Positions 8,001 to 44,322 of a DNA stretch of 64,000 bases are shown piece by piece. Under the pieces are notes generated by a model that saw nothing but the letters and a program-made list of their open reading frames with translations, was not told where the DNA came from and did not search any database. Position numbers and translations under genes: made by a program. The stretch comes from a virus: the IMG/VR virus record IMGVR_UViG_3300040801_002079, positions 221,837 through 285,836 of that record. The stretch is one strand, 5' to 3'. Numbering within the stretch: position 1 is the stretch's first letter; the number at the start of each line of letters is the position of its first letter.

Positions 8001-8206
8001 TTTACTTTTCTAACAATCCAGTCAATACTTTCCGATCCGGCTAACATCAGGGCTACCCATAAAATCAAATAAAGCATGGAATATGCCCCGAATGTATCAC
8101 CATACGTATCGGCTAAATATTTAAATAATTCATAGCCACCCCATAGATTAAGAATGACCCATATTAATTTGAGTATTGATATTCTCATAGCAATAAATAA
8201 TAACAT
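7991..8206 (-). CDS. Small membrane protein (up to 71 aa)
   Basis: Two hydrophobic segments (around residues 8-28 and 43-58) with a short acidic loop between them and a basic end (RKVKGK), so probably a two-span inner-membrane protein. The start could be at 8206 or at the internal MRISILKL (8188), and neither has a clear ribosome-binding site. The gene overlaps the start of the plus-strand kinase-like gene at 8205 and its stop lies within the tRNA-Asn acceptor. Function is unknown; holin-like architecture is possible but unproven. Confidence 0.5.
   Translation of the reverse strand: MLLFIAMRISILKLIWVILNLWGGYELFKYLADTYGDTFGAYSMLYLILWVALMLAGSESIDWIVRKVKGK
8192..8199 (+). promoter_or_regulatory. 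Late promoter box AATAAATA, 5 nt before ATG
   Basis: Same geometry as the boxes at 15691 and 17364: box, 5 nt, ATG of a capsid-targeted gene. Confidence 0.6.
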
Positions 8207-8915
8207 GAAACTTAAAGACTTACAAGAAGCCTTCGATACTCAAATTTCTAACATCGATTATGATGGACACTTTCCATTTGGTTATATCCAAACCAAAGAT
8301 GACGATGCTCTTGGTCATGGGGAATTCTCCAGAGTGACGCAAGATAAAGATGATCCCCATATGGTTGATAAGCAACAGCTTAACAGGACCGACAGGTCTG
8401 GAAGCATCTTTGTTGATATGTTTGACCAGTATGCTGAAATCATTGCCGAAGAACGTCTATGGGAAATGATTCACTTTCCACGAGTTTATGCTATTAAAAA
8501 ATATACAGACGAAGCTGGTGAGGTTCGCAATAAATGGAAAATGGAAAAACTCATAGAACTGGATTCTCTTGACCAAGAAGAAATCAAACGTATGACTCAT
8601 CGTTATTTTATCCCCGAAGTTGCCGAAGAAGTTGCGGAACTAGATGCGGAAAAAGAAGATCAATATCATTATTCAAACTTTGCTGATGCAATCTCAGTCG
8701 CAATACATGAAGGTGAGTGGGATCACTTCAGAGATAAGACCCTAGAGAAAGCCGCTGAAAAATTAGAAGACATCTATACCGATCTTCGGCAAAATTATGG
8801 GTATGATGCAGTTGCTTTGGATTTACATTCTGGGAACATAATGGTTAGAAGAACCCAGAATGGCCTTCAAGTTGTTTTCTCTGACCCGTTCGCGGGAAGA
8901 AAACAATATATGTAA
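8205..8915 (+). CDS. Kinase-fold-like protein with capsid-targeting N-terminus
   Basis: The gene encodes 236 residues from MKLKDLQEAF. The first eight residues end in L-Q-E, matching the T4 gp21 cleavage rule (L/I-x-E), so it is probably packaged in the head and trimmed. A Gly-rich GHGEFSRV segment (~39) is followed much later by D206-L-H-S-G-N211-I-M, a classic kinase catalytic loop (D-x-H-x-x-N), and by SDPF at ~226-229 where DFG would stand. The middle is helical and acidic. I infer an injected kinase-like effector; the ATP-binding lysine is not obvious. It is one of three plus-strand genes in a minus-strand block, each behind its own late promoter. Confidence 0.65.
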   Translation: MKLKDLQEAFDTQISNIDYDGHFPFGYIQTKDDDALGHGEFSRVTQDKDDPHMVDKQQLNRTDRSGSIFVDMFDQYAEIIAEERLWEMIHFPRVYAIKKYTDEAGEVRNKWKMEKLIELDSLDQEEIKRMTHRYFIPEVAEEVAELDAEKEDQYHYSNFADAISVAIHEGEWDHFRDKTLEKAAEKLEDIYTDLRQNYGYDAVALDLHSGNIMVRRTQNGLQVVFSDPFAGRKQYM

Positions 8916-10429: not shown

Positions 10430-10431
10430 CA

Positions 10432-10641: not shown

Positions 10642-10648
10642 AAACACA

Positions 10649-10677: not shown

Positions 10678-10678
10678 G

Positions 10679-10755
10679 TGGTACCCACGGTAGGATTCGA
10701 ACCTACAACATCTGCCTTTTGAAGGCAGCGCCTCTGCCAATTGCGCTACGTGGGC
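10679..10755 (-). tRNA. tRNA with Leu anticodon CAA on a class I body
   Basis: Acceptor GCCCACG/CGTGGGT, T arm GTAGG/CCTAC, encoded ACCA, anticodon loop TTCAAAA (anticodon CAA). The variable loop is short (ATGTT), although bacterial tRNA-Leu is class II. D stem and anticodon stem compete for one base. Charging identity is therefore doubtful. Confidence 0.75.
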
Positions 10756-10763
10756 ATAATGAT

Positions 10764-10839
10764 TGGCAGGCGAGGAGGGCCTCGAACCCCCAACCTGCGG
10801 TTTTGGAGACCGCTGCTCTTCCAATTAAGCTACTCGCCT
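10764..10839 (-). tRNA. tRNA-Trp(CCA)
   Basis: Complete cloverleaf, loop CTCCAAA (anticodon CCA), discriminator G, encoded CCA. Confidence 0.94.
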
Positions 10840-11447
10840 ATTTTCTTACAATTCTCAAAATGCCACCTAGTCATTCCATTTTGTACACCACGCAATCCAC
10901 AATGGGGGCAAGTTACATATATCTTTTCTTTCAACTTTAATGATTCGCTAATTTTATTTATATGTTCTAGTGTTTTTGGTTTCGAAGCAGCTTTTGATGC
11001 ATGGGACTTTTGTGCTAAAGGGTCGCGCCTAGACCAGTGATTCTTCGACATTAGGTGGCGAGTTTTATCTGATACTGGTGGTCGCTTTAACGCTGCTTGC
11101 CGAATCTTATTCTTTGTTTCAAAATTATGGGATTTACCACTAAATGCACCAATAATTCCGGGATTACCTCCACTTCCGCCAACTTTTAAATTATAACATA
11201 ACGGGCTATTAACTACCGATTCATTAACCAAGCTTCGCTCAATATAAAACATCTCTTCCTTAGTATCAACCACGGCTAAAATTTCTTTCTCAAAATTCTC
11301 AATTCCATATTTTTTAATGGCTCGTTTCAAAACCTTGCCCGAACCCATATACCCATCATTTAAATCAACGGTCTTATGGCAACCTATATAAAACCTACCG
11401 TTGATTTTATTTGTTATCTTATAAACAATGTATTTAATGTCTATCAT
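10830..11447 (-). CDS. GIY-YIG homing-type endonuclease
   Basis: The gene encodes 205 residues from [20 protein letters not shown]. The GIY-YIG core is visible as YIVYKI...GRFYIGCHK (residues ~6-25), followed by a family-like R-x-x-x-K-Y-G-x-x-x-F segment and a Glu-bearing helix. The middle has NUMOD-like basic segments ([14 protein letters not shown]). The C-terminus is a zinc-finger-like C-x-x-C...H-x-x-x-C ([21 protein letters not shown]). Such free-standing nucleases (T4 Seg type) cut at intergenic sites and spread by homing, and tRNA clusters are common targets. A TATAAATA box lies 5 nt before this ATG, which also argues against the longer frame to 11573. The 3' end overlaps tRNA-Trp by ten bases. 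Confidence 0.88.
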
Positions 11448-11452
11448 GTATG

Positions 11453-11460
11453 TATTTATA
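11453..11460 (-). promoter_or_regulatory. Late promoter TATAAATA, 5 nt before ATG
   Basis: Exact match to the T4 late consensus. The predicted start falls on the ATG of the GIY-YIG gene, so the transcript would be leaderless. Confidence 0.7.
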
Positions 11461-11468
11461 CTAATATT

Positions 11469-11520
11469 TGGTGGGGAAGCCAGAACGAGCCGTTGGCCCG
11501 CGTGTGTACACACCCTCCCC
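11469..11520 (-). other. CCA-ended tRNA-like mini-element (52 nt)
   Basis: GGGGAGG pairs CTTCCCC over 7 bp and is followed by ACCA, as in a tRNA acceptor. The interior is only ~34 nt, with a GTGTGTACACAC palindrome and no D, anticodon or T arm. Looks like a tRNA remnant or an acceptor-mimic. Confidence 0.45.
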
Positions 11521-11526
11521 ATTGTT

Positions 11527-11616
11527 TGGTACTCTGGGTCGGACTCGAACCGACACGGGCACACACGGCCCACTGGATTTTAAATCCAGCGCGACTACCA
11601 ATTTCGCCACCAGAGC
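11527..11616 (-). tRNA. tRNA-Leu(UAA)
   Basis: Class II, 90 nt, loop TTTAAAA (anticodon TAA), long variable arm (GGGC/GCCC), encoded ACCA. D, variable and T arms are the same as those of tRNA-Leu(UAG) at 11939, so the two arose by duplication. Confidence 0.94.
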
Positions 11617-11625
11617 ATTCTTGTT

Positions 11626-11679
11626 TGGTGGAGAGTGAGTTGAGTCCATGAAACCCAACGCTGATCAGACTTCCTCTCC
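11626..11679 (-). pseudogene. tRNA remnant without anticodon arm (54 nt)
   Basis: GGAGAG/CTCTCC acceptor-like stem with ACCA end and a degenerate T-arm-like hairpin (GTTG...CAAC). There is no room for an anticodon arm. Probably a decayed tRNA, comparable to the armless gene at 9341. Confidence 0.45.
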
Positions 11680-11685
11680 ATTGTT

Positions 11686-11760
11686 TGGTGTTACCGACGA
11701 GATTCGAACTCGCACCGTCCAGAGTGAAAGTCTGGTGACCTACCATTAGTCTACGGTAAC
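11686..11760 (-). tRNA. tRNA-Glu(UUC)
   Basis: Complete cloverleaf, loop CTTTCAC (anticodon TTC), acceptor GTTACCG/CGGTAAC, encoded ACCA. Confidence 0.94.
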
Positions 11761-11938
11761 ATGTTAATTTTAGGGTTAACCGGCATTCAGTGCAGTCTTA
11801 GACAAACCACCTGAGGTCGGGATGGTAAAAACCCTCTCAAAAATTTAACCCATCTTTATTACGTTTCACCCCTCGCGCACACAATAGAAGCTACCTATTG
11901 CGGTCTACTGCGCTACTCGGTCAGTCGTAATTCTAATT

Positions 11939-12028
11939 TGGTACGATGGGTCGGACTCGAACCGACACGGGCACACACGGCCCACTGGCTTCTAAAGCCA
12001 GCGCGACTACCAATTTCGCCACCATCGC
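11939..12028 (-). tRNA. tRNA-Leu(UAG)
   Basis: Class II, loop TTTAGAA (anticodon TAG), same arms as tRNA-Leu(UAA) at 11527 except acceptor and anticodon stems. Encoded ACCA. Confidence 0.94.
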
Positions 12029-12070
12029 ATAATTATCAAAGCGTTTTTGCCACTTAAACTACTGTCCCGG

Positions 12071-12112
12071 TGCCGGGATCAGGTGGGTTTCGAACCCACA
12101 TCTCCTTGATCA
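12071..12112 (-). pseudogene. T-arm minihelix, tRNA remnant
   Basis: A perfect T arm (GTGGG-TTCGAAA-CCCAC) is flanked by GATCA and TGATC, which can pair. No D or anticodon arm and no CCA. A CCCGG-TG-CCGGG hairpin overlaps one side. Confidence 0.4.
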
Positions 12113-12121
12113 TATATTGTT

Positions 12122-12197
12122 TGGAAACCCCGGTGAGATTCGAACTCACACAAACCAGAATCAAAATCTGGTGCTCTACCAGTTAAGCTACGAGGCT
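12122..12197 (-). tRNA. tRNA-Gln(UUG)
   Basis: Complete cloverleaf, loop TTTTGAT (anticodon TTG), encoded CCA, and T at the discriminator position, which is unusual for Gln. Confidence 0.9.
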
Positions 12198-12313
12198 ATA
12201 AATTTGGTGTGGGATACTTAACGCCCAGCATCGCTCCCACGACAACCCCTGCAATAGAATATCTCCGCTTGCGGCACCATCTATTACATCTAAGGCGGGT
12301 TACTTAAGTAAGG

Positions 12314-12553
12314 TTATCTACATTGCCACTGGTACTGTCCATAGATCATAAACCACATACTTGATGTCCATGGTGCCAGTGTAAACGTATAATAATTATA
12401 TTGATCCCTATAATAGCAATTCATATAATAGGGTGTTTGATTTAGAATCCTAATCACAGGCTGTCCTGAGTTATTTCGGGTAACCTGCTCAACAACTGCT
12501 GCGGATGCTGTTGAAGAAAATAATAGCAGTAATGTTAAAAGTATAGCTCTCAT
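12314..12553 (-). CDS. Small secreted protein (79 aa)
   Basis: A clear Sec signal peptide (MRAILLTLLLLFSSTASA, cleavage after ASA) is followed by a ~60-residue Tyr/Gln/Trp-rich domain. The mature part has two Cys and could form a disulfide. No lipobox Cys is present, so it is not a typical outer-membrane spanin. The ATG overlaps the stop of the upstream membrane/coiled-coil gene by four bases. Possible periplasmic factor; function unknown. Confidence 0.72.
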   Translation of the reverse strand: MRAILLTLLLLFSSTASAAVVEQVTRNNSGQPVIRILNQTPYYMNCYYRDQYNYYTFTLAPWTSSMWFMIYGQYQWQCR

Positions 12554-12891
12554 GGCATATCTCCTACATCCATTATTTCCTGACGAACTTTCATTATCTC
12601 TTTAAGCTGTTCCTTGTACATATCATACTTAATCTGCTCATTAACCGATAATGTTCCACCCGCTTCTTCAATCTTTCCATACATTTCGATTCTCATTTCA
12701 AGTAATAGCATCTGAGTATCTATATGGCGAAGATCGGATATTTCTTTGTGCATGTAACGAGTGTCGAGCCATAGTGCACCCGTAATCATCATACCAAGTA
12801 AGGTTCCCAGAACGGGTCCAAAAAGAATTAATCTTTTATACCATTTCTTAATGGCTCTAGCGGTTTGATCAGTTTTAACTTCGTCATTCAT
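12550..12891 (-). CDS. Single-pass membrane protein with coiled coil (113 aa)
   Basis: A short basic N-terminus is followed by one transmembrane helix (~20-42, LFGPVLGTLLGMMITGALWL) and a long Glu/Lys/Met-rich coiled coil in the remaining ~70 residues. This is the topology of an inner-membrane spanin, and a secreted small protein overlaps its 3' end. The partner lacks a lipobox, so a spanin pair is only a possibility. A CATAAATA box lies exactly 5 nt before the ATG, so late leaderless expression is predicted. Confidence 0.72.
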   Translation of the reverse strand: MNDEVKTDQTARAIKKWYKRLILFGPVLGTLLGMMITGALWLDTRYMHKEISDLRHIDTQMLLLEMRIEMYGKIEEAGGTLSVNEQIKYDMYKEQLKEIMKVRQEIMDVGDMP

Positions 12892-12896
12892 ATACC

Positions 12897-12904
12897 TATT
12901 TATG
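12897..12904 (-). promoter_or_regulatory. Late promoter box CATAAATA, 5 nt before ATG
   Basis: Box, 5 nt (GGTAT), then the ATG of the coiled-coil membrane gene. A CTTAGACAT/ATGTCTAAG hairpin (12912-12934) separates it from tRNA-Gln(CUG). Confidence 0.6.
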
Positions 12905-12950
12905 CTCAGAGCTTAGACATTTTTCATGTCTAAGTGTCTAAGTACAGGAA

Positions 12951-13026
12951 TGGCGGTCCCGGTAAGAGTCGAACTTACACCATCCAGAATCAGAATCTGG
13001 CGCTCTACCAGTTAAGCTACGGGACT
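12951..13026 (-). tRNA. tRNA-Gln(CUG)
   Basis: Complete cloverleaf, loop TTCTGAT (anticodon CTG), discriminator G, encoded CCA. D and anticodon arms are near copies of tRNA-Gln(UUG). Confidence 0.94.
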
Positions 13027-13031
13027 ATATG

Positions 13032-13331
13032 TTACTGTAGAACATCTTGAATAAGTGATATGTAGTCACGGTCTCCACGGGTTGTAATTTCATTACCATC
13101 CGCTTGGTCCTGTGTTACTATCCATGTTTCCTCATGTACCATTTCACCACTTGAAACACAAACAAAGTCAGCGACCATTTCAGGGCTATACTCATTGATT
13201 TCTTCTAGATATTCCGCGACATACTTATCACGGGCTGCTCTAGCCCTATCAATATCTCCAAATATGCCCAAGGATTCTACATTAAATCCACCCGAACATT
13301 CAGCATGTTCTAAACGATAAATTTTTTGCAT
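13032..13331 (-). CDS. Hypothetical protein (99 aa)
   Basis: An acidic soluble protein starting MQKIYRLEHAECSGGF. The pattern (a short strand-rich N-terminus, then a D-R-A-R-A-A-R-D-K helix) is common in small phage proteins, but no function is known to me. First of a run of small minus-strand genes after tRNA-Gln. Confidence 0.7.
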   Translation of the reverse strand: MQKIYRLEHAECSGGFNVESLGIFGDIDRARAARDKYVAEYLEEINEYSPEMVADFVCVSSGEMVHEETWIVTQDQADGNEITTRGDRDYISLIQDVLQ

Positions 13332-13335
13332 TTAC

Positions 13336-13578
13336 TTAAGCCTCAAAAAACTCAGGAAGTGCTTCTTTCAATTCCTTTGTAGTTAAGACGGTATGAGTTA
13401 ATTCCTCAACAACATCACCAACCTCTTCTCTCAGGTCTTCTATGTTGGAATTAACGTCTTCAACCGTTGGCAATTCTTCATAACCGATAAGGTGATTTAT
13501 GTGTAACTCGCCCTCTTCCTTATCCATTTGAAAAAATACAACCCAGTGCGAACATTCATTAACATTAAATTCTTCCAT
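13336..13578 (-). CDS. Hypothetical acidic protein (80 aa)
   Basis: The start MEEFNVNECSHW is chosen because AGAGGA lies 7 nt upstream. The longer frame to 13602 overlaps the preceding gene. Strongly acidic with two Glu/Val-rich helices. Unknown function. Confidence 0.65.
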   Translation of the reverse strand: MEEFNVNECSHWVVFFQMDKEEGELHINHLIGYEELPTVEDVNSNIEDLREEVGDVVEELTHTVLTTKELKEALPEFFEA

Positions 13579-13589
13579 AACTTTTCCTC

Positions 13590-14066
13590 TTAGTTCCACC
13601 AATAAGGGACTTCACGATTAGTCCACTTGGCAATATGATTTTTATGCATTTTATAATAATTTCTATACGCTTGTACAGGGTTTCCCTCAACTTTACATTC
13701 ATCGGGCATACACTGTGGAAATTCTGTTAGACCCCTATCTGGCATATTTTCAGGAAGATACATCAATGCATCAGATTTTTCAACCCATGTTTTGTGCACC
13801 TTTCCATACCTGAACGTGTACTCATTACATAATTCTTCGAACAAGTAATATGCCCAGACATAGTTAGACGCAGATTCTCTCACCCAAACTGCGGAAGGGT
13901 GATTAACATGCGTCTTACGATATAAAGATTCTGCTAAGGGTGATTCATAAACATGATGTGCCGTAGACAAAAGCTGGGCCGTTTCAAGTATCATCTTTAC
14001 CACATGTTTATCATTGTGGTAACGGGCTGCTTGCTGTACATCTTCATCTAACAAAAATATATTCAT
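13590..14066 (-). CDS. Conserved phage protein of the D-K-H-V-V-K-M-I-L-E type
   Basis: The gene encodes 158 residues. The sequence has a recognisable pattern found in many T4-like phages and cyanophages: an N-terminal LDEDVQQAARYHNDKHVVKM, then ETAQLLSTA, NHPSAVWVRES, N-E-Y-x-x-R-Y-G-K-V-H and a C-terminal Y-R-N-Y-Y...W. Several His, Asp and Glu residues are conserved in the motifs as I remember the family, so an enzyme is plausible. To my knowledge no activity is established, so I name no function. Confidence 0.75.
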   Translation of the reverse strand: MNIFLLDEDVQQAARYHNDKHVVKMILETAQLLSTAHHVYESPLAESLYRKTHVNHPSAVWVRESASNYVWAYYLFEELCNEYTFRYGKVHKTWVEKSDALMYLPENMPDRGLTEFPQCMPDECKVEGNPVQAYRNYYKMHKNHIAKWTNREVPYWWN

Positions 14067-14084
14067 GAAGCTATTATAGCAATT

Positions 14085-14270
14085 TTACTCCGCAACTTCA
14101 ACTATACGATCAATGCTGCCAATAAAAACGTGACCATCATAGTCCCCACCAACAACTTCTCCGGTAAAGACCCCATCTTCACGAGGAGTGTCGCTTACAC
14201 GAACAACCTTCACCTTGAAAAGTCTTCCTTGAACATTTTCGTATATTACTTCATCATCTATTCTAATCAT
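14085..14270 (-). CDS. Hypothetical small beta-rich protein (61 aa)
   Basis: Starts MIRIDDEVIYENVQGRLFKV, one base after the stop of the upstream membrane gene (TAA-A-ATG). The frame upstream to 14333 overlaps that gene and is unlikely to be used. The alternation of charged and hydrophobic residues suggests a small beta-barrel (SH3- or KOW-like). Unknown function. Confidence 0.65.
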   Translation of the reverse strand: MIRIDDEVIYENVQGRLFKVKVVRVSDTPREDGVFTGEVVGGDYDGHVFIGSIDRIVEVAE

Positions 14271-14271
14271 T

Positions 14272-14472
14272 TTAACAACCTGTTGTAAATAGTTCCTTGA
14301 TTGCTGGACCAAAGGTTGCAAGAATTCCTGCAATACTCGCTACTGTAATCAAGCCCAGTACAATCCATTTTGTTTTAAAATCATCTGCTGCAATTCTAAA
14401 ACCAATAAATTCATTTCCTAAAACGCGAATGCTCATTTCAAATGAGCCGTCCTCATTCTTCATATCAACCAT
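14272..14472 (-). CDS. Small membrane protein (66 aa)
   Basis: A soluble N-terminal half is followed by one transmembrane helix (~36-56, WIVLGLITVASIAGILATFG) and a short tail. GGGGA lies 7 nt before the ATG. Unknown function. Confidence 0.7.
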   Translation of the reverse strand: MVDMKNEDGSFEMSIRVLGNEFIGFRIAADDFKTKWIVLGLITVASIAGILATFGPAIKELFTTGC

Positions 14473-14491
14473 TAAATTCCCCTATTAAATT

Positions 14492-14585
14492 TGGCGGTGG
14501 GGGTGGGATTTGAACCCACGGACCTGCTTTCACAGGTCGCTGGTTTTCAAGACCAGTGCAATAAACCAGACTCTGCCACCCCACC
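14492..14585 (-). tRNA. tRNA-Ser(UGA)
   Basis: Class II, 94 nt, loop CTTGAAA (anticodon TGA), long variable arm (GACCTG/CAGGTC), discriminator G, encoded CCA. Confidence 0.95.
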
Positions 14586-14600
14586 ATTGTATATAGTGTT

Positions 14601-14695
14601 TGGCAGAAGGGATGGGATTCGAACCCATGGATGGGTGTTACCCCCATCTCCACCTTTCCAAGGTGGTGCATTAGTCCAGACTCTGCCACCCTTCT
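14601..14695 (-). tRNA. tRNA-Ser(GGA)
   Basis: Class II, 95 nt, loop TTGGAAA (anticodon GGA), long variable arm (GATGGG/CCCATC), discriminator G, encoded CCA. Confidence 0.95.
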
Positions 14696-14698
14696 ATA

Positions 14699-15265
14699 TT
14701 AAACCATGCATCCTATCAGTAAATTAAGAGTCTTATCGTAATCATCTTGTTTCTTCTGATATTCTTCGTTTCTACCCAATATATCTATCGCTCGTTTCAT
14801 TGAGTAATAATTTAGCCCATTATGAAAGTCAGTTTGAACAAAATGCTCGTGATGTTCCTCATTGAACAAATGCTGTTCCATGTCATCAATAATGACATAA
14901 GCCTCTATATCATCACGCTTTTCCAGCCATTCCGATATGCGGTGAGTGCGTCCATATAATTCGCGATCACCAGAAAGACTGAAGCCTGAGCTTTCAGTTC
15001 TTCCAACAAACACCGTTCGAGGGAAAGTAAACCCCCGTTCTACAAACATATCATAAAGCTCTTTAATGGAAAAAAGCTCTCTCCATGTACTGGAAACCAC
15101 AATCTTGGCATCAGTTTGTTTAAGTATCTCCTCAAGAAGGGCTAACTTTCCCGGAGAAATGACCTCTGCTCCATGGTTATAAGGATGATCTTCAACATAA
15201 TCCTTTTCCATAAAATCGGTGGTTGAGTTTAAAACTCCATCAATATCTAAAAAAATAACTTTCAT
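14699..15265 (-). CDS. HAD-superfamily phosphatase-like protein
   Basis: The gene encodes 188 residues from MKVIFLDIDGVLN. Motif I is DIDGVLN (residues ~7-13, D-x-D-G), motif II is VVSSTWR (~57-63), and motif IV-like IIDDMEQH is near ~128. This arrangement matches the HAD domain of 'Swiss Army Knife' RNA-repair proteins, which act as phosphatases on nucleic-acid ends. Given its place in a tRNA array, a role in tRNA-end repair after host anticodon-nuclease attack is an attractive inference. No ligase or kinase partner is visible next to it. A CATAAATA box at 15273-15280 makes the MKV start likelier than the upstream MTM at 15271. Confidence 0.75.
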   Translation of the reverse strand: MKVIFLDIDGVLNSTTDFMEKDYVEDHPYNHGAEVISPGKLALLEEILKQTDAKIVVSSTWRELFSIKELYDMFVERGFTFPRTVFVGRTESSGFSLSGDRELYGRTHRISEWLEKRDDIEAYVIIDDMEQHLFNEEHHEHFVQTDFHNGLNYYSMKRAIDILGRNEEYQKKQDDYDKTLNLLIGCMV

Positions 15266-15383
15266 AGTCATCTATTTATGATATTACAAATAAGTATGGA
15301 AGTCAAGTTGACAATGGCAGTTGCCGCATTGCCTTCCGTCCCCGACACCTGTTCACACACTGCCATGCATTATGCGGTGCCTC

Positions 15384-15457
15384 ACACCCCGACAGGAGTC
15401 GAACCTGCAACCGAGAGCTACTATGCCCCCAACTCTGCCGTTGAGTTTACGGAGTAT
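15384..15457 (-). pseudogene. tRNA-like gene with undetermined anticodon
   Basis: Acceptor-like stem ATACTCCG/CGGGGTGT, D arm (AACTC/GAGTT) and T arm (GCAGG/CCTGT, TTCGACT loop) are present. The anticodon hairpin (GGGGGC/GCTCTC) has a loop of six or eight bases, so no anticodon can be read. No CCA is encoded. Likely a decayed tRNA. Confidence 0.5.
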
Positions 15458-15465
15458 TTCTAATT

Positions 15466-15590
15466 TGGTATGGTCAGCGGGAGCCAAACCTTGAACGTGG
15501 TTCCGGACCTTCTGTTCATTTTTCGCAGCCTCTGCCTTCGCAATTCCGGAATGCTACTAACAGCCGTTTTATCATTAAACTATGACCATA
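15466..15590 (-). other. Long structured element closed by a tRNA-acceptor-like helix
   Basis: TATGGTCA at the 5' end pairs TGACCATA at the 3' end, directly followed by CCA. A D-arm-like GTTT/AAAC hairpin follows the 5' strand. The interior carries a TTCCGGA/TCCGGAA helix enclosing a GCAG-AGG-CTGC hairpin. No recognisable T arm. Could be a tRNA-derived RNA with an insertion. Confidence 0.35.
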
Positions 15591-15597
15591 TTGTTTT

Positions 15598-15673
15598 TGG
15601 TGCAAGGTCTAGGAATCGAACCCAGTTAGTCGGCTCTTCAGACCGCTGCAATGACCACACTTGCTCACCTTGC
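15598..15673 (-). tRNA. tRNA-Phe(GAA)
   Basis: Acceptor GCAAGGT/ACCTTGC, D arm GCAA/TTGC, anticodon loop CTGAAGA (anticodon GAA), encoded ACCA. The first pair of the anticodon stem is a G-A mismatch. Confidence 0.85.
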
Positions 15674-15690
15674 AAAATCTTTTTATCATT

Positions 15691-15698
15691 TATAAATA
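15691..15698 (+). promoter_or_regulatory. Late promoter TATAAATA, 5 nt before ATG
   Basis: Exact late consensus. The predicted start is the A of the ATG of the ADP-ribosyltransferase-like gene. Confidence 0.7.
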
Positions 15699-15703
15699 TA
15701 AAC

Positions 15704-16084
15704 ATGAAACTCAATAATATATTACAAGAAAACGGATATACCTATCCAACTTCAAACAAAACCATAACACTTTACCGAGGATTATCACGAGAATTTGATC
15801 CAACATATGATAATTCAACACTGGACTCTCCAACAGGATATAGTTGCTGGTCAGATACTCCTGAACTGGCAAGAGCTTATGCTGGAGATGATGGTTATGT
15901 TTATAAAATAGAGTTACCTTTAAAGGAATTAGGGGACACTTTTATTACTGATGATGGCGATAGGCCCCTATTTTATAAATCGGATCATGGCGCTAATATA
16001 AATGGAGCGCGTGGACAAGAATACATGATATACCATGATCATGAAAATTTCTCGCCCGATTCGATTAAATTAACCGATTACTGA
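15704..16084 (+). CDS. ADP-ribosyltransferase-like protein with capsid-targeting N-terminus
   Basis: The gene encodes 126 residues. The first nine (MKLNNILQE) match the capsid-targeting pattern with cleavage after L-Q-E. Next comes the ART signature of the R-S-E class: LYRG with R25, a GYSCWSDTPELARAYA segment (residues 45-60) corresponding to the S-x-S motif and following helix, and ARGQEYMIY with E106 as the catalytic-Glu candidate. It is a minimal ART domain. T4 packages the ART Alt in the head and injects it to modify host RNA polymerase; this protein could play the same role. The target is unknown. The longer frame starting at 15470 runs through tRNA-Phe and is not the real start. Confidence 0.78.
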   Translation: MKLNNILQENGYTYPTSNKTITLYRGLSREFDPTYDNSTLDSPTGYSCWSDTPELARAYAGDDGYVYKIELPLKELGDTFITDDGDRPLFYKSDHGANINGARGQEYMIYHDHENFSPDSIKLTDY

Positions 16085-16100
16085 ACTATAAGCATATAAT

Positions 16101-16177
16101 TGGTCTCCGTGGTGGGATTTGAACTCACAACCTCTTGGCCCCAAACCAAGTGCTCTCCCAAATTGAGCTACACGGAG
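16101..16177 (-). tRNA. tRNA-Pro(UGG)
   Basis: Complete cloverleaf, loop TTTGGGG (anticodon TGG), acceptor CTCCGTG/CACGGAG, encoded ACCA, one T-stem mismatch. Confidence 0.92.
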
Positions 16178-16185
16178 TTTGAATT

Positions 16186-16261
16186 TGGTGCATCTGGTTG
16201 GGCTTGAACCAACGGCCTCCTGCATGTCACGCAAGCGCTCTCCCAACTGAGCTACAGATGC
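16186..16261 (-). tRNA. tRNA-Val(GAC)
   Basis: Complete cloverleaf, loop GTGACAT (anticodon GAC), acceptor GCATCTG/CAGATGC, encoded ACCA. Confidence 0.92.
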
Positions 16262-16265
16262 ATAT

Positions 16266-16358
16266 GTCCATATTTTGATCCAACACTTTTTCAGAAGGAC
16301 CGCGCTACCAGTTTAGCTACCAGCTTTCGCTGAACAGGACTCGAACCTGCATATGGAC
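16266..16358 (-). other. Permuted tRNA-like element (93 nt)
   Basis: Read on the minus strand, the tRNA parts come in circularly permuted order. First the T arm (GCAGG-TTCGAGT-CCTGT), then an acceptor-like stem (TCAGC/GCTGG) closed by a GAAA tetraloop, then TA and a D arm (GCTA/TAGC with AACTGG loop), then a possible anticodon-side stem GGTCC/GGATC. The whole is closed by an 8-bp helix GTCCATAT/ATATGGAC where the variable loop would be. No CCA. It may be a deletion join of two neighbouring tRNAs or a true permuted tRNA-like RNA. Confidence 0.5.
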
Positions 16359-16362
16359 ACAG

Positions 16363-16409
16363 TGTTTCTCATTCTATACAATTCACGTTTTTTGTATATT
16401 ATGAGAAAC
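16363..16409. repeat. Long perfect inverted repeat
   Basis: GTTTCTCAT-TC-TATACAA on one side and TTGTATA-TT-ATGAGAAAC on the other form a long hairpin just downstream of the sulfotransferase-like gene. It may protect the 3' end or act as a terminator without a strong T-run. Confidence 0.65.
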
Positions 16410-16415
16410 AGAAAA

Positions 16416-17030
16416 TTATTCTTTGATGTAATTAAATTTATCGAAGTCTTCACCAGCCCATTCATTTACCAATTTTGTAGCTTCTGGTGATTTTATCTCT
16501 TCCCAAGTTCTATAGAAGGGTTTTGATTTCATAGAAAAAACAACGGGGACTTCAATATAACTCTTTACGAATGGAAGATTATTGAATTGTTCAGTTGCAT
16601 GTTCTATCTGAATAAATGCATCCATACGCATATTGTTCAGCCTCTGCTCAAAATATAAATGCAGTGGAACCAAGGATGCTGCAACTTTAATACCATCTAA
16701 CCCATGCTGCATCATGTTTTCCCTTTCAGCAACAACCCATTCCAACGTTGAAATCAATGTTGGCTCTTCTCCTATCATTTCCTTTATTTGGGAACCATGC
16801 ATTGCATCAGGATTCATAATCAATGACCAAGCTGAGGCGAATCGATTATATGGACTCCTAACAGTGCAAAATCTAAAATAGTCTTCAGCGTATTCGGGAA
16901 CCTCGTGGTTGTGGTAATGACCCCCCGAATGCTCACCTTGAAAATGTTCGGTTAAAAATTCAAACATAGCATGAGTTCCCGTTTTAGGAACAGATACAAA
17001 AACATAGTTTAATTCTTTTGAAATTATCAT
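16416..17030 (-). CDS. Sulfotransferase-family protein
   Basis: The gene encodes 204 residues. Residues ~10-25 read FVSVPKTGTHAMFEFL, the 5'-phosphosulfate-binding loop (P-K-x-G-T) of PAPS-dependent sulfotransferases. FCTVRSPYNRFASAW (~53-67) fits the 3'-phosphate-binding R...S segment. The length suits the compact bacterial sulfotransferase fold. It would transfer sulfate from PAPS to a carbohydrate or other acceptor, perhaps surface glycans of host or virion. A CATAAATA box sits 6 nt before the ATG. Acceptor unknown. Confidence 0.8.
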   Translation of the reverse strand: MIISKELNYVFVSVPKTGTHAMFEFLTEHFQGEHSGGHYHNHEVPEYAEDYFRFCTVRSPYNRFASAWSLIMNPDAMHGSQIKEMIGEEPTLISTLEWVVAERENMMQHGLDGIKVAASLVPLHLYFEQRLNNMRMDAFIQIEHATEQFNNLPFVKSYIEVPVVFSMKSKPFYRTWEEIKSPEATKLVNEWAGEDFDKFNYIKE

Positions 17031-17036
17031 TTATTG

Positions 17037-17044
17037 TATTTATG
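17037..17044 (-). promoter_or_regulatory. Late promoter box CATAAATA, 6 nt before ATG
   Basis: One base further from the ATG of the sulfotransferase gene than the seven exact cases, so the mRNA would have a leader of about one base. Confidence 0.5.
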
Positions 17045-17135
17045 AATAAAAGAGTAAGCACGAGGTTGCGAACCTTCTCCAGCATTGGCGATATGTTGCG
17101 ATCATTCTCTCCGCCGCATTACTTACTCATAAATC

Positions 17136-17211
17136 TGGTGGTCCGTGCTGGACTCGAACCAGCAACCTTTCGATTATCGGTCGAATGCTCTACCAATTGA
17201 GCTACCGGACC
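17136..17211 (-). tRNA. tRNA-Ile(GAU) with C33
   Basis: Complete class I cloverleaf with encoded ACCA. The loop CCGATAA gives anticodon GAT but has C instead of the near-universal T at position 33. The last acceptor pair is a G-A mismatch. Confidence 0.85.
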
Positions 17212-17363
17212 TTACAATTAGCCGATTGTAAATACTACAATTAGCCGATTAAAATGTCGCAATTTATCCCGCAAAATTGCGGGATAAAAATGGAGGGGGT
17301 GCCTATATACCGCAGACAAATGATACTGATAGGCTCCTCATCATTCCGTTGGTCTCCCCTCCT
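17212..17363. repeat. Repeats and inverted repeats upstream of the second kinase-like gene
   Basis: ACAATTAGCCGATT occurs twice (near 17213 and 17239). A perfect 12-bp inverted repeat (TTTATCCCGCAA / TTGCGGGATAAA) follows at about 17262-17287. GCCTAT and ATAGGC can then pair within a GAGG...CCTC context (17293-17360). Possible operator, terminator or structured RNA. Confidence 0.4.
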
Positions 17364-17371
17364 GATAAATA
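17364..17371 (+). promoter_or_regulatory. Late promoter box GATAAATA, 5 nt before ATG
   Basis: Box, 5 nt, ATG of the second kinase-like gene, matching the geometry at 8192 and 15691. Confidence 0.6.
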
Positions 17372-17376
17372 TACTT

Positions 17377-18021
17377 ATGAAACTCAAAGACCTATTAACC
17401 GAAACACCGCTGCCACCAGATTGGGATAAAGATAAATTCAAATCATCTACCCCGTTTGCGCAACGTGTTCGCTATGCTAAAGAACGTGCAAAACAAATCG
17501 GTGTCGGTTCAGCCCGTATTGCATTTGAGGTTGAATACGAAGGCCGTCCTACTATTTTAAAAATAGCCAAGAACAAAAAAGGGATTGCACAAAATGAATA
17601 TGAATCACAAATGTTCAATGATTACTACCTGCGTAGTCTTGAAATAACCATTCCAATAATTGACCATGATGAAGAAAATGATCCTCCGACATGGATTCAT
17701 ATGGAAAAGGCTGAAAAAATGAAGCCTACTCAATTTAAAAAATTCTTTAACGGTATGGACCCCCACGAAGTCCTAGATGCCGTAACATACTTAACAGGTA
17801 AAACCCGACAATTTAATCGTCCTAGTCAAGAAACCATTGACAAATACAATGAATTATTCGAAACAAACGAGTATATTAATAGTCTCGTAGACTTAACTGG
17901 CAATTATGATATCGAAGCCGGGGATTTTGCCCGTTTAGCAAACTGGGGAATCTATAAAGGAAACCCCGTTATTATCGACATCGGTGGTAGTAGTGAAGTT
18001 ATTAAACTTTACTATATGTAA
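17377..18021 (+). CDS. Kinase-fold-like protein with capsid-targeting N-terminus
   Basis: The gene encodes 214 residues. The first nine (MKLKDLLTE) match the capsid-targeting/gp21-cleavage pattern. A Gly-rich loop GVGSARIAFEV (42-52), an ATP-lysine candidate K62 in TILKIA and a helix-C Glu in AQNEYE (E74 or E76) follow in kinase order. Near the end, NWGIYKGNPVIIDIGG places D201-I-G-G where DFG stands. The catalytic HxD loop is not clear, so it could be an active small kinase or a pseudokinase. The longer frame starting at 17254 lies upstream of the promoter box and is not used. Confidence 0.65.
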   Translation: MKLKDLLTETPLPPDWDKDKFKSSTPFAQRVRYAKERAKQIGVGSARIAFEVEYEGRPTILKIAKNKKGIAQNEYESQMFNDYYLRSLEITIPIIDHDEENDPPTWIHMEKAEKMKPTQFKKFFNGMDPHEVLDAVTYLTGKTRQFNRPSQETIDKYNELFETNEYINSLVDLTGNYDIEAGDFARLANWGIYKGNPVIIDIGGSSEVIKLYYM

Positions 18022-18256
18022 ATGGTAGCTGGTGCCTACCCTATGATATTTTCTCTTATCGATTGGCCTCACAGTTCGGCGCTATCCCAGACCCGTGCGG
18101 CCTTGGCTCGACTATAGTCTAACCGCACTTCATATTTTGTAACCTTGGGGCATAATCAAGGTTAATTCGTGCCAGCGGCTCTGTACTTTGGCCTACATGT
18201 GTGCTTTTCATCGCCCACATGACGGGGTATTCTCCCGCAACGCACTGGCTTCTATC
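18022..18256 (-). ncRNA. Structured RNA candidate downstream of tRNA-Tyr
   Basis: No open frame. Minus-strand helices include AACCTTG/CAAGGTT, GTGCGG/CCGCAC, GCCAG/CTGGC and GGTAG...CTACC. Transcription from the array promoter would carry through it after tRNA-Tyr. No known RNA family is recognised by eye. Confidence 0.4.
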
Positions 18257-18345
18257 TGGTGGAGGTGGAAGGATTCGAACCTACTCAGCCGCTAAGGGCA
18301 ACGGGTTTACAGCCCGTCCCAGATCACCGTCTCTGGAGCACCTCC
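18257..18345 (-). tRNA. tRNA-Tyr(GUA)
   Basis: Class II, 89 nt, loop CTGTAAA (anticodon GTA), variable arm GCCCTTAGCGGC-like, acceptor GGAGGTG with A73, encoded CCA. Confidence 0.93.
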
Positions 18346-18353
18346 TTTAATTT

Positions 18354-18430
18354 TGGCGGAACAGAAGGGCCTCGAACCCTCACCCCCTTCCGTGACAGGG
18401 AAGTACTCTACCTACTTAAGCTACTGCTCC
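18354..18430 (-). tRNA. tRNA-Asp(GUC)
   Basis: Complete cloverleaf, loop CTGTCAC (anticodon GTC), discriminator G, encoded CCA. First tRNA of the array in transcription order. Confidence 0.93.
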
Positions 18431-22320: not shown

Positions 22321-22349
22321 ATTATATCACACTACAATTTCTTTTTCAA
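22321..22349 (-). promoter_or_regulatory. Sigma70-type promoter (TTGAAA-17-TATAAT)
   Basis: 5/6 -35, 17-bp spacer, perfect -10. The -35 box overlaps the last codons of the gene at 22332. It drives the 435-aa gene. Confidence 0.7.
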
Positions 22350-22757
22350 GTAAGAAACTGCGCTTCCTGAGGGTTCAAATGAAATTGCATTAAACTTTAA
22401 CTCAACGCTATCCCTCTTTCCTTCTTCAGTTACATACTCAACCGTTACACTGTATGGTGATTTGTTACTTCCTAATTTAAAATCAGATGGTGGATTTGTA
22501 AGCTGAATATTTAGTATCTCTTTGGCTTCCATATTTGTAGCCTTAGCTAACGTTTTAGCCAACTTTACTGGGCCAATGTCTAAACTAACAACACCTCCAT
22601 CTGGAATCCTGACTGCACCTTCCTTAGTTTCAAACACAACATCATTAATGTTGTATGAAAGTGAATCTGGAATATTTTCTAAATCTGCACCAGATACTCT
22701 AACTTTGACATCAAATTCGTCATCTTTAGCTTCTGTTAGAATATCTGATAATTTCAT
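22332..22757 (-). CDS. Candidate internal head protein with capsid-targeting N-terminus (141 aa)
   Basis: Starts MKLSDILTE, then A, the best-matching form of the shared N-terminal peptide. The remaining ~130 residues are beta-rich (DVKVRVSGADLENIPDS..., VSLDIGPVKLAKTL) with no recognised family. It sits directly after the gp21-like protease gene, in the region of T4 core-protein genes. Predicted to be carried inside the prohead and trimmed after residue 9. Confidence 0.68.
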   Translation of the reverse strand: MKLSDILTEAKDDEFDVKVRVSGADLENIPDSLSYNINDVVFETKEGAVRIPDGGVVSLDIGPVKLAKTLAKATNMEAKEILNIQLTNPPSDFKLGSNKSPYSVTVEYVTEEGKRDSVELKFNAISFEPSGSAVSYLKKKL

Positions 22758-22759: not shown

Positions 22760-23383
22760 TTAAACCTTTTTAATCACATTCTCAACGAACTTGCGAATTT
22801 CAGCATTAAAATATTTCTGAGCCGCTGGATCATGCTTCAAGCTTTCAGCAAGACTGATAATTCCAGCATCCTCAATTGCTTCAGTAATAGTATTAGGCAT
22901 TGCTCCGGGAGCGGATGGAGTAACAACCAAGTCAACTGTAACAAGATTAAATCCTGAAACCATTCCACCCTCACTAACAACGCCTGCTCCACGACTGGAT
23001 ACACCATAGCGTACACCAGACTTGGAAAGTTCCTGTGCAATCATACCCATCGGGGTATCTAATAGCTGTGCTTTACCAACAACATTATTTCCGTCCATGT
23101 AGATATCTTTAATGGCATGGGAAATACGGTCCATGTTAATAGTAATCGTATCGGGATGATCTAATTCACCAAATACTCCACCAAAGTCATTGATCTGCTG
23201 GCGCATACTATTAACTGCTGCTGTCATTTCATCCAGCTTATAAATGCGTCCATTTCTATTCTCAATCTCGGCTTGCATAAACGTTCCGACCAAATAAGTC
23301 TTTCCGTCACTCTTAGCCTCTGTAATGATGTTTCCCTGAGATGCCGTGGTGGTCTCAATTAATAACTGCTGCTTCATGTTCAT
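22760..23383 (-). CDS. Prohead core protease, T4 gp21-like
   Basis: The gene encodes 207 residues, as in T4 gp21 (212). YLVGTFMQAEIENRNGRIY (~30-48), GVFGELDHPDTI with H76 and a GVSSRGAG segment with S129/S130 match the serine-protease core of the family (T4 His/Ser pair). The N-terminus MNMKQQLLIE ends in L-I-E and a second site I-T-E lies at ~20-22, both consistent with self-cleavage. It cleaves scaffold, capsid and internal proteins after L/I-x-E during head maturation. Upstream, an ATG/stop overlap joins it to the 371-aa gene. Confidence 0.93.
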   Translation of the reverse strand: MNMKQQLLIETTTASQGNIITEAKSDGKTYLVGTFMQAEIENRNGRIYKLDEMTAAVNSMRQQINDFGGVFGELDHPDTITINMDRISHAIKDIYMDGNNVVGKAQLLDTPMGMIAQELSKSGVRYGVSSRGAGVVSEGGMVSGFNLVTVDLVVTPSAPGAMPNTITEAIEDAGIISLAESLKHDPAAQKYFNAEIRKFVENVIKKV

Positions 23384-24501: not shown

Positions 24502-24870
24502 TCAATACTCATTTTTGTACATGTGATAGCGTTCTTCCCACGCTGCCATACGATCCTCTTCATCGTAATCTCTATAATCGTCCCAGTTTTCTTCATCATC
24601 TGGACTACGTTCGGTTAACTCATCTTCAATTGCCATCATAATGTTATCAACATAATCCGCATTATAGAAATCGGTTGGGATAAACCCAAGTTGATGTAAA
24701 TATTTTTTAAAGGGTTCATCGTCCTTTACACGTAAGCCCCCTAGTGCTCCTCGCTCCAATGATGCATATAAGTCCTCTAATACATCCGTATTGAGGCTTC
24801 CAATAACAGAAGCATCACTACGATTAATCGCACTCATGTCCACTTCTAATAAAATGTCGTTAAGTTTCAT
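24502..24870 (-). CDS. Candidate internal/core protein with capsid-targeting N-terminus (122 aa)
   Basis: Starts MKLNDILLE then V, nearly the same nine residues as the next gene upstream. The rest is acidic and ends with a very charged Asp/Glu/Arg/Tyr tail (DDYRDYDEEDRMAAW). The ATG overlaps the upstream stop by four bases. Position near portal and protease fits a gp67/gp68-type core protein. Confidence 0.68.
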   Translation of the reverse strand: MKLNDILLEVDMSAINRSDASVIGSLNTDVLEDLYASLERGALGGLRVKDDEPFKKYLHQLGFIPTDFYNADYVDNIMMAIEDELTERSPDDEENWDDYRDYDEEDRMAAWEERYHMYKNEY

Positions 24871-25154
24871 AAGTCAAACTGATCCATATCTGAGTCTGCA
24901 AGACTAATCATTTCTTCCGTATCATCAATGAACTCATCTCCCAATGCTGAAACTACTTCATACCAATCAACATTTTTGGGATTAATTCCGTAATACCTGA
25001 AATCAAAATTCTTGAGCAAAAAGTCTCGAACCTCTTTCCAATGTCCCATTAGATATAGCTCTTCCAGTTGCTCAGGGTGATCACCCAATGCTTCAATCAT
25101 TGCCGAAGTATCTTCAAACCCCAAACCTTCTACTAAAATATCATTAAGCTTCAT
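24867..25154 (-). CDS. Candidate internal/core protein with capsid-targeting N-terminus (95 aa)
   Basis: Starts MKLNDILVE then G. The body is acidic and helical, ending DSDMDQFDL. It follows the 58-aa gene after one base and overlaps the next gene by four. Likely a member of the same packaged set; the body shows no recognised fold. Confidence 0.68.
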   Translation of the reverse strand: MKLNDILVEGLGFEDTSAMIEALGDHPEQLEELYLMGHWKEVRDFLLKNFDFRYYGINPKNVDWYEVVSALGDEFIDDTEEMISLADSDMDQFDL

Positions 25155-25892: not shown

Positions 25893-27578
25893 TTAAGGAG
25901 TTTCTTCCCCGATATCTTCTTCCATATCAGTACCGGCTTCTTCTCCCTCTCCTTCTTCGCCTTCTAGGTCTTCAACTTCCGTTTCTTCATCAAAGTCACC
26001 TAGATCGCCTTCGCCGCCTCCAGCGCCACCGAATCCGCCAATGCCGCCTTCAAATCCCTGATCTTCAGCAATATCCGGATTATAAATCTTAACCAAATCT
26101 TCCTTACCACCATCAACAGGCAGACCCATTTCTTCACGCTTGAGACGCTCATTAAGTGCCTGCTCTTCTGGTGTAAGCTGTAAGTATTTGGTCTGTGCGA
26201 ATCTAACAGAAAGTGAATCAATTCCTTCAGCATTGCCATAGTTGTTGAGTCTGTCAGAATCAATAGCAATCTCTCTATGATCAGAGAAGTTAGATGGGCT
26301 TGGCAATGCTATTCTGAATGAAGATGGGTCAACTACTATCTTCATATCCGCCAAGAATCGTTTAAATTCACCATCAAGGGTTTCTTCTAGATGGGCTTGT
26401 AGCCTCTCGACATATTGGGAGAACTTGATTTCCTGCATATATGCAATGCCTACCCTGCCATCATTGCTTGGACTGCCGCCACCGTCTACCATATTGTTCA
26501 TATAGGAATCTGGTATTCTCATTCCTCTCCATAGCTTGGAGAAGAAATATTGTAAATCATCAAGTTGTCCAAGGCCCTGACCACCGGGAAGGGTTTCTAC
26601 ACGACCACCATTGCCATCTGCTGGAACAGAGAAGAAAAAGTCTTCTTGCATTGACTGTGGATCGTAAATTGATTCAATCTGATCTTTACCACCACGCTGA
26701 GTTGGAATTTTCTTCTGGCGCATTTCATTTTTAACTTTACGCAAATGCGCTTCAATCTGGGTTCCCCTCATCTTACCGGTGGGGATATAGAATACACGGC
26801 GTTCAGGAGCACGGGAAATTCTATAGATTAGAAGTGAATCTTCAAGTAGTTCCTTCTGTTTAAAGGTTCGATATGCTGCCCTTAAAATAGACTCCCCAAA
26901 TGGAGCCTCATTATTCATTTCATCAGACAGCGTGAATCTAACAACATCTTTATTATCAACAAACCCATAATCTCTGTTGTTTTTACTATTGTCACTATGG
27001 GGAGTTATATTAACAGGAAGTAAAAGTTGGTTACCATAGTTTGCAGTGGCATCATTGAAATTAAGATTTATTTCCCATTTCTTAATATCATATATATCTT
27101 CAACACTTACTTCTGCTGCATTAACATGCTTGGGATGAACGTATATTAACTTTTTAAAAGCTCCGGAATTATTTCTAAGAAAGAAGCAATCGCCGTACTT
27201 AATAGTAGACCTTGCCACGCCAAACAATCGGCTGTTCCACTGCTGAACTCTACACCATGTTTTTAATGCGGATTTCAGTGTAACGATTTGCGAAGTTGAC
27301 ATCTTATAATGTTCATTATCAACATGTACATCTAATGGTAAATCTCTTTTACTCTTATTGCCTACCATTTCCTCAGCAATAAGGTCTAATGCACGAGCAA
27401 TATCTATATCAGCATCCATAGTGTCATATTCACTATATCGCTTAAGTCTGGTGTACGAACCTCTAACCAAACGGGTGTACCAGTTAATGCTGCCAAATCC
27501 AAGCATATCAGCATTGGATGTCATGTTGGCAGAGGCATATCCCGGAGTTATAATTTTATAGAATTTTTTAACGCTCAT
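25893..27578 (-). CDS. Portal protein, T4 gp20-like
   Basis: The gene encodes 561 residues, close to T4 gp20 (524). Typical T4-type stretches include YDTMDADIDIARALDLIAEEM, SILRAAYRTFKQKELLEDSLLIYRI followed by RAPERRVFYIP, and RGMRIPDSYM, all of which occur at the expected places. The last ~60 residues are extremely acidic and Gly-rich (GGAGGGEGDLGDFDEET...), an unusual tail. It forms the dodecameric DNA gate of the head and the connector to the tail. A late box lies at 27601-27608. Confidence 0.93.
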   Translation of the reverse strand: MSVKKFYKIITPGYASANMTSNADMLGFGSINWYTRLVRGSYTRLKRYSEYDTMDADIDIARALDLIAEEMVGNKSKRDLPLDVHVDNEHYKMSTSQIVTLKSALKTWCRVQQWNSRLFGVARSTIKYGDCFFLRNNSGAFKKLIYVHPKHVNAAEVSVEDIYDIKKWEINLNFNDATANYGNQLLLPVNITPHSDNSKNNRDYGFVDNKDVVRFTLSDEMNNEAPFGESILRAAYRTFKQKELLEDSLLIYRISRAPERRVFYIPTGKMRGTQIEAHLRKVKNEMRQKKIPTQRGGKDQIESIYDPQSMQEDFFFSVPADGNGGRVETLPGGQGLGQLDDLQYFFSKLWRGMRIPDSYMNNMVDGGGSPSNDGRVGIAYMQEIKFSQYVERLQAHLEETLDGEFKRFLADMKIVVDPSSFRIALPSPSNFSDHREIAIDSDRLNNYGNAEGIDSLSVRFAQTKYLQLTPEEQALNERLKREEMGLPVDGGKEDLVKIYNPDIAEDQGFEGGIGGFGGAGGGEGDLGDFDEETEVEDLEGEEGEGEEAGTDMEEDIGEETP

Positions 27579-30791: not shown

Positions 30792-31274
30792 ATGACTACA
30801 ACTAAAAAGAAGAAAACTAAGAATTATTTGAATAATAAAGACATGCTGCATCAATGGAAACTAAGCTATGAAGCTGATGCAATGACAGATGTATTTGCCA
30901 ACATGATCATGTTGCTTACCAAGAGATACTCATCCAAGGTTAGATTCAATGTTTGTGATACTTTCCGAGATGATATGGAATCATTTGCCCTGATGACCGT
31001 ATCTAAAGTATGGAGAAGTTTTAATCCAGAGAAATCCAATAATCCATTCGCATATTTTACCCAAGTAATTAAGCGGGCATTTTATCAATATCAAAACATG
31101 GAACGCAGACAGCGTGATATTTCAAATGAACTATTAATAGAAGATGGTCAGTCCCCTTCCCATGCATACATGGTCGAATATGAATATCGGAATTTTGACC
31201 CGGACGATGCGGGTGGATCAATTAAAACCACGTATGGTGACGGATATTCTGAAGCTGATGAGACCGAATCTTAA
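30792..31274 (+). CDS. Late-transcription sigma factor, T4 gp55-like
   Basis: The gene encodes 160 residues, like T4 gp55 (185). After a lysine-rich start, DDMESFALMTVSKVWRSFNPEKSNNPFAYF followed by TQVIKRAFYQYQNMERRQRD is the sigma region-2-like core (polymerase binding and -10 recognition, F-N-P-x-x-x-x-x-N-P-F-A-Y-F). It would direct host RNA polymerase to the (N)ATAAATA boxes found before most virion genes here. AAAGGAG precedes the ATG. It overlaps the end of the convergent gp46-like gene by four bases. Confidence 0.88.
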   Translation: MTTTKKKKTKNYLNNKDMLHQWKLSYEADAMTDVFANMIMLLTKRYSSKVRFNVCDTFRDDMESFALMTVSKVWRSFNPEKSNNPFAYFTQVIKRAFYQYQNMERRQRDISNELLIEDGQSPSHAYMVEYEYRNFDPDDAGGSIKTTYGDGYSEADETES

Positions 31275-43857: not shown

Positions 43858-44322
43858 ATGAAAATTGAAGACATTTTAAATGAGGCTAGAAGTCGTGAAG
43901 AGGCATGGTGGATTGATGACGCACTGGAGTCTGCATGGGAAAATGATTACGTATTGTTTTACGAGGAAGTTCAGGGAATGGTGGAAGAACTTGCTGATAT
44001 GTATCCCGATAATCCCAAAGCTAAGAAGGCACAGAATTATTTCATGAAACAATTCGCGGGCCTTGAAAATGCAAAAATAGCAGAGAATGAATATAATGAA
44101 AAGTTTATTCACTATGTTCTGGGGACCGATTATCGAAGTGGCGAAATGCCATTCTCTGAGGCGATTAAGCGTTTAAGGGAATTTGAAAAATGGGTTGACG
44201 ATGTTGATGTATATTATGAGCCTAGTGATATTGAGGATGCTGAATATGCTGAAGGACGATTTGATTATAATGGACCCAATGACCCATATGCTGAAAGAGG
44301 CGTTAAACGATCTGACTTTTAA
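43858..44322 (+). CDS. Candidate internal head protein with capsid-targeting N-terminus (154 aa)
   Basis: Starts MKIEDILNE then A, which fits the shared packaged-protein peptide with cleavage after L-N-E. The body is acidic and helical (WWIDDALESAWENDY..., MVEELADMYPDNPKAKKAQN) without a recognised family. It sits inside the baseplate operon between spike and gp25, an odd place for a head protein, and has its own late box. The upstream in-frame ATG (43819) is inside the spike gene and lacks a ribosome-binding site. Confidence 0.65.
   Translation: MKIEDILNEARSREEAWWIDDALESAWENDYVLFYEEVQGMVEELADMYPDNPKAKKAQNYFMKQFAGLENAKIAENEYNEKFIHYVLGTDYRSGEMPFSEAIKRLREFEKWVDDVDVYYEPSDIEDAEYAEGRFDYNGPNDPYAERGVKRSDF

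Follow-up and report, generated by a model that had tools for sequence, protein, structure and literature searches.

Does the 126-residue protein encoded between two tRNA genes of this phage act as an ADP-ribosyltransferase (ART) that is loaded into the virion head and injected into the host, as the first-pass annotation proposed by analogy with T4 Alt? The source genome is that of a 316.8-kb phage (IMG/VR record), which places it among the giant or jumbo phages, and the window analyzed here is a 64,000-bp stretch of it (bases 221837-285836). The window carries 29 tRNA genes, every one on the - strand (1871-18430), and small single-gene cassettes on either strand are scattered among them. It also holds a T4-like head module made up of the portal gene, small tag-bearing genes and the gene of an S77-family (gp21) prohead protease, for which the nearest named phage is Xanthomonas phage XacN1 (63% identity over 204 residues). 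In the tail region (47750-57964), a 3404-aa protein ends in a long run of TPT/TVTPT repeats. The genes that serve as landmarks are:

22760..23383, - strand: prohead protease, S77 (gp21) family (Pfam PF03420, E 2.9e-22; 63% identical to XacN1)
25893..27578, - strand: portal protein (XacN1-like T4 gene order; relatives found)
30792..31274, + strand: late sigma factor, T4-type gp55-like (PHROG 234, E 3.4e-24)

Translation confirmed the open reading frame at 15704-16084 (+ strand), which gives a protein of 126 aa (P0001). The ORF lies alone on the + strand, flanked by tRNA-Phe and tRNA-Pro, both on the - strand. Its frame is open upstream from 15464, an extension that overlaps tRNA-Phe (15598-15673, - strand), and a late promoter lies directly in front of the ATG:

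15691..15698, + strand: T4-type late promoter TATAAATA, ending 5 nt before the ATG of the 126-aa ORF

Because of this overlap and the position of the promoter, the ATG at 15704 is the likely start. The sequence TATAAATA is the T4 late promoter consensus. Genome-wide, 29 ATAAATA sites are separated by exactly 5 nt from a downstream ATG that opens a substantial ORF; shuffled 7-mers gave 0.7 on average and never more than 2. Sites of this class in the window are found at 15691, 17364, 8192 and 62844 on the + strand and at 4046, 11460 and 12904 on the - strand. If the start point is placed as in T4 late promoters, this spacing suggests that the approximately 29 late genes have leaderless mRNAs, and the mRNA of the 126-aa ORF is probably leaderless as well. 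A late promoter is one of the hallmarks of a T4-type internal head protein, and TATAAATA together with the gp55-like sigma factor supports late expression of the 126-aa ORF.

In T4, internal proteins are targeted to the head by N-terminal propeptides, which gp21 cuts after L/I-X-E, and Alt loses a propeptide of 7 residues in this way (PMC9026906). The first nine residues of the 126-aa protein, MKLNNILQE, end in the gp21-type motif [LI]xE, and MKLNNI-LQE falls within the propeptide length of about 7-19 residues expected of such proteins. The cognate protease is encoded in the same genome (S77, PF03420, 22760-23383). The pattern MK[LI]x1-5[LI]xE occurs at the N-terminus of 14 of the 477 genes of this genome, against an expectation of 1.2 and a maximum of 6 in 300 column shuffles, and tagged genes flank the protease gene on both sides (22332, 24502, 24867). 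The tag and the other genes that carry it are as follows:

15704..15730, + strand: capsid-targeting-type tag MKLNNILQE, predicted prohead-protease cut after E9 (L7-Q8-E9)
22332..22757, - strand: gene with tag MKLSDILTE, adjoining the prohead protease gene
24502..24870, - strand: head-module gene, tag MKLNDILLE
24867..25154, - strand: head-module gene, tag MKLNDILVE
43858..44322, + strand: further tagged gene, MKIEDILNE

The enrichment and the tagged genes beside the protease support the proposal that a capsid-targeting-type peptide precedes the ART-like domain. The Leu codons within the tag vary synonymously, so it is the peptide rather than the DNA that is conserved. The tag is also present on genes with ordinary leaders, head-module genes among them. 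That MKL might serve leaderless mRNAs as a start signal at the nucleotide level was considered and dropped, since the codons vary and leadered head genes are tagged too. In phage PA5oct, whose protease is 43% identical to the prohead protease of this genome, a 73-aa protein starting with the nearly identical sequence MKINDIITE adjoins the portal and is annotated as detected by mass spectrometry. A tag common to effectors and head-core genes does not hold as a rule for every phage; among seven phages checked, head-core genes occurred without exactly the effector tag.

Two further genes elsewhere in the genome have tag-like starts. A tRNA nucleotidyltransferase gene (G000:211087-212274, - strand, corresponding to L013:2087-3274; PF01743, E 2.6e-34) starts with MKLSILLEQ, and its ATG follows a late promoter at a distance of 5 nt. 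A GNAT acetyltransferase-like protein (G000:101299-101727, + strand, corresponding to L007:6299-6727) starts with MKLKHLFESHE and is a possible further packaged modifier.

Near the 126-aa ORF, among the same tRNA genes, are two tagged kinase-like genes:

17377..18021, + strand: kinase-like protein, tag MKLKDLLTE before TPLPPDWD (kinase assignment by motif pattern only)
17364..17371, + strand: late promoter GATAAATA of the tagged kinase-like gene at 17377, 5 nt ahead of its ATG
8205..8915, + strand: second tagged kinase-like protein (MKLKDLQE), late promoter at 8192-8199

We call them kinase-like on the motif pattern and a single profile match, that of the protein at 8205 to PHROG 15752 (phage protein kinase, E 5.5e-4); the protein at 17377-18021 matches PHROG 4301 and is a probable co-packaged neighbour of the 126-aa protein. 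Relatives of the gene at 17377 were found at 60 IMG/VR loci (L027, L082-L139). Their tags differ (MKIKELLKE, MKFADFLLE, MKISELLNE, MKLDNLYRTLIQE and others), yet in 38 of the 43 distinct contexts [LIVM]xE immediately precedes the kinase-like core. Of the other five, four arose where the search pattern hit a different domain, and one (LLLEAP) is off by a single residue. In some members of this family the gp21-type motif is internal, between an acetyltransferase domain and the core. An S77 protease is encoded in 10 of the 11 tag-bearing phages tested, the remaining one being a 188-kb record that is perhaps a fragment.

These observations bear on the strongest competing explanation, in which an ART-fold protein is made late and stays unpackaged, its MKL start reflecting translation of leaderless late mRNAs; its site of action would then be the cell in which it was made, with superinfecting phages or late host functions as examples of what it might act on. 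The tag is found on only some of the 29 genes with the ATAAATA spacing, and homing endonucleases also belong to this promoter class, as such an explanation would have it. Against it stand the tagged genes with ordinary leaders, head-module genes included, the conservation of the tag as amino acids, and the recurrence of the [LIVM]xE boundary in different phages. We regard it as unlikely.

We then ask whether the part behind the tag is an ART:

15731..16081, + strand: predicted minimal ART domain, residues 10-126 (R25 at 15776-15778, S50 at 15851-15853, E106 at 16019-16021)

R25, the S47-C48-W49-S50 segment and G104-Q105-E106 were all found where the first-pass annotation had placed them, and R25, S50 and E106 follow the order of the R-S-E clade (Alt, VIP2, Mod), consistent with a putative member of it. 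The R/S/E spacing alone is not significant evidence for an ART. The residue two before E106 is G, so that the ExE/QxE signature associated with R-S-E toxins is absent.

Family searches returned little. No match to the 126-aa protein was found in Pfam (E ≤ 1), PHROGs (E ≤ 0.1), NCBIfam or PADLOC, and PF18760 (ART-PolyVal) matched neither this protein at E ≤ 1 nor anything else in the whole genome. No homology to Alt was detected with Pfam, PHROG, NCBIfam or tblastn against phages. Direct searches with P0001 (PDB chains, phages, plasmids, IMG/VR, GTDB and 42 records) gave one weak family, represented by Alishewanella phage Slicko01 and locus L071. A DNA pattern for WSDTPExARxY had no match, and a looser version of it found two ART families. 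A mixed-ART profile gave chance matches only against PDB sequences.

Profile comparison was more informative. With hhalign, residues 21-76 of the 126-aa protein aligned to a profile of 11 phage ART-PolyVal proteins with a score of 36.5 (probability 75%), 3 of the 11 having been reached through P0001 itself or a pattern derived from it; no other gene of the genome scored above 25.1, and none of 200 shuffles above 24.2. Against an independent eight-member profile P0001 again came first, at 25.6, by a narrow margin over the best shuffle (25.1). It ranked 1 of 677 queries (477 own genes and 200 shuffles) against the ART-PolyVal profiles. E106 was matched to the acidic residue of this family by eye only, and an alignment that included C-terminal fragments was dropped, the fragments being misplaced. 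The first motif of ART-PolyVal is mostly H; some members have R (L142:536-1345, 'CYRG...FFST'), and it is around the last strand that small relatives of the R type diverge. Among detectable families, ART-PolyVal is probably the closest, nearer than T4 Alt. Of the proposed Alt-like ART domain, the R-S-E order stands and an ART affinity is seen; the nearest family is another one.

We also modeled the structure. AlphaFold without relatives (single sequence) gave a pLDDT of 44, and this model shows the strand-strand-helix-strand order of the N-half of ARTs. With fragments of six relatives (7 sequences), pLDDT rose to 66 and pTM was 0.62. In a BFVD fold search the latter model had as its best match an ART-PolyVal-like phage domain (E 6.1e-3, probability 1.00), and PARP, KptA and more ART-PolyVal proteins were among the top 20; all E-values were above 1e-3. 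This match is not independent, because the alignment behind the model contained ARTs, some of them reached through P0001. The single-sequence model retrieved some of the same proteins, none significantly. In the PDB, the best fold match had E 0.59 and no ART was found. Fold matches to ARTs thus came from viral proteins, and none from the PDB. Taking sequence profiles and models together, we consider an ART fold very likely, and active ART chemistry less so.

Within a packaged and ejected protein, the ART-like fold may serve something other than transfer to a macromolecule, such as an NAD+ hydrolase, an eraser of NAD-derived signals or an inactive binder. The missing E/Q two residues before E106 and the divergence of the small R-type relatives around the last strand would fit this, as would the NADase activity of some ART families (PMC9503650). 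R, S and E are nevertheless all there, in order, and modification of macromolecules is the presumed activity of most family members (PMC9503650). We hold this to be slightly less likely again than the unpackaged protein. It is improbable that the protein is an internal head protein, small and tagged, with a different fold and a local resemblance in the YAGxxGYVYK stretch: a direct family match is absent, the PDB fold search was empty and the margin with the independent profile is thin, but the aligned residues 21-76 include the LYRG and S/T motifs, even the single-sequence model has the matching order of strands and helix, and several named ARTs are among the best viral fold matches.

Tagged ART genes are also found beside a kinase-like gene in four other phage lineages (L130, L091, L071, L131). 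In L130, three consecutive genes with the tags MKFADFLLE, MKFVDFLNE and MKFADFLNE encode a kinase-like protein, a 145-aa protein with the pattern 'LYRGG...WYTEDPDFATTY', and another kinase-like protein. In L091, L071 and L131, the tagged ART gene is no more than about 1 kb from the kinase-like gene, and the tagged ARTs of L071 and L131 score above the PF18760 cut-off. Slicko01, to which a weak match of P0001 had first led, encodes a tagged protein of this family as well (PF18760, E 2.1e-11). PF18760 was found in 8 of 31 records, some with tandem tagged arrays. Such arrays, in which as many as four tagged ART genes lie next to or close to each other, are seen in L142, L154 (G022), L143 (G018) and L147 (G014), and some of their proteins hold two ART domains. 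We found no account of cassettes of tagged ART and kinase-like genes in the open-access literature searched, a scope outside which most subscription papers lie.

The reading that we favor, and consider reasonably probable, is that the 126-aa protein is a late-expressed, head-packaged, single-domain ADP-ribosyltransferase that is ejected with the DNA and modifies a host macromolecule. It joins what was computed here, namely a late promoter, a tag class common to head-module genes, an S77 protease, a late sigma factor and an affinity to ART-PolyVal, with packaging, cleavage, ejection and NAD chemistry as predicted from sequence. Late in infection, the gp55-like sigma factor would transcribe the gene from its own TATAAATA promoter, and the tag MKLNNILQE would take the protein into the prohead core. 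Cleavage after E9 by the S77 protease would then give an ART of about 117 residues within the head. In the next round of infection it would be ejected along with the DNA and, ahead of phage gene expression, draw on the NAD+ of the host to ADP-ribosylate a host macromolecule, probably alongside the genome's tagged kinase-like proteins. T4 Alt, for comparison, modifies RNA polymerase.

Alt is likewise a late-expressed ART of the virion head, with an N-terminal propeptide removed by a gp21-type protease (PMC9026906). The proposed common logic is supported for late expression, tag and protease; in sequence, no similarity is detectable. Alt is about five times longer, and its packaging has been shown by experiment, whereas that of the 126-aa protein is a prediction. 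ART-PolyVal supplies the best profile match and the best fold match, and phage ARTs of this family are thought to be injected (PMC5512222 and PMC9503650). Unlike them, the 126-aa protein is below Pfam detection and has R for the usual H; it is a single domain with no polyvalent fusion, in agreement with its description as a small stand-alone protein. T4 IPI-IPIII are likewise unrelated small proteins with a short tag at the N-terminus that has [LI]xE as its end (PMC9026906), whereas the gene studied here has another tag sequence and a predicted enzymatic cargo and stands alone between tRNA genes. The anti-CRISPR AcrIF11 is also a compact stand-alone phage ART, but it is not known as packaged, is diphtheria-toxin-like and has H-F-H-D residues (PMC12421852).

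Many phage ARTs are already held to be packaged. In PMC9503650 this is an established inference, especially for myoviruses, with about 44% of phage ARTs in suggestive contexts; the passages of it considered here draw on fusions and gene neighbourhood, with no targeting tag. Several ARTs per jumbo phage are known as well (PMC7824862). The additions here are the tag evidence and the small size, and the 126-aa protein is probably an unusually compact version of the head-loaded ART known from T4.

We tentatively suggest, at somewhat under even chances, that phages possessing a prohead protease of the T4 type have a general loading system in the form of a short, cleavable tag specific to each lineage, and that cassettes of late promoter, tag and enzyme arm the virion with host modifiers. 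Such cassettes would be added singly, often between tRNA genes; their cargo would comprise ART, kinase-like and acetyltransferase proteins, and perhaps a methyltransferase and the tRNA nucleotidyltransferase, and the 126-aa ART would be among the smallest such warheads. Thanks to the boundary between tag and core, the kinase-like family allows a direct test of the cleavage site. If this is true, a very small ART would become available for enzymology, the N-terminal tag would tell from sequence alone which phage proteins travel with the DNA, even in unculturable genomes, and the injected arsenal of jumbo phages would get names.
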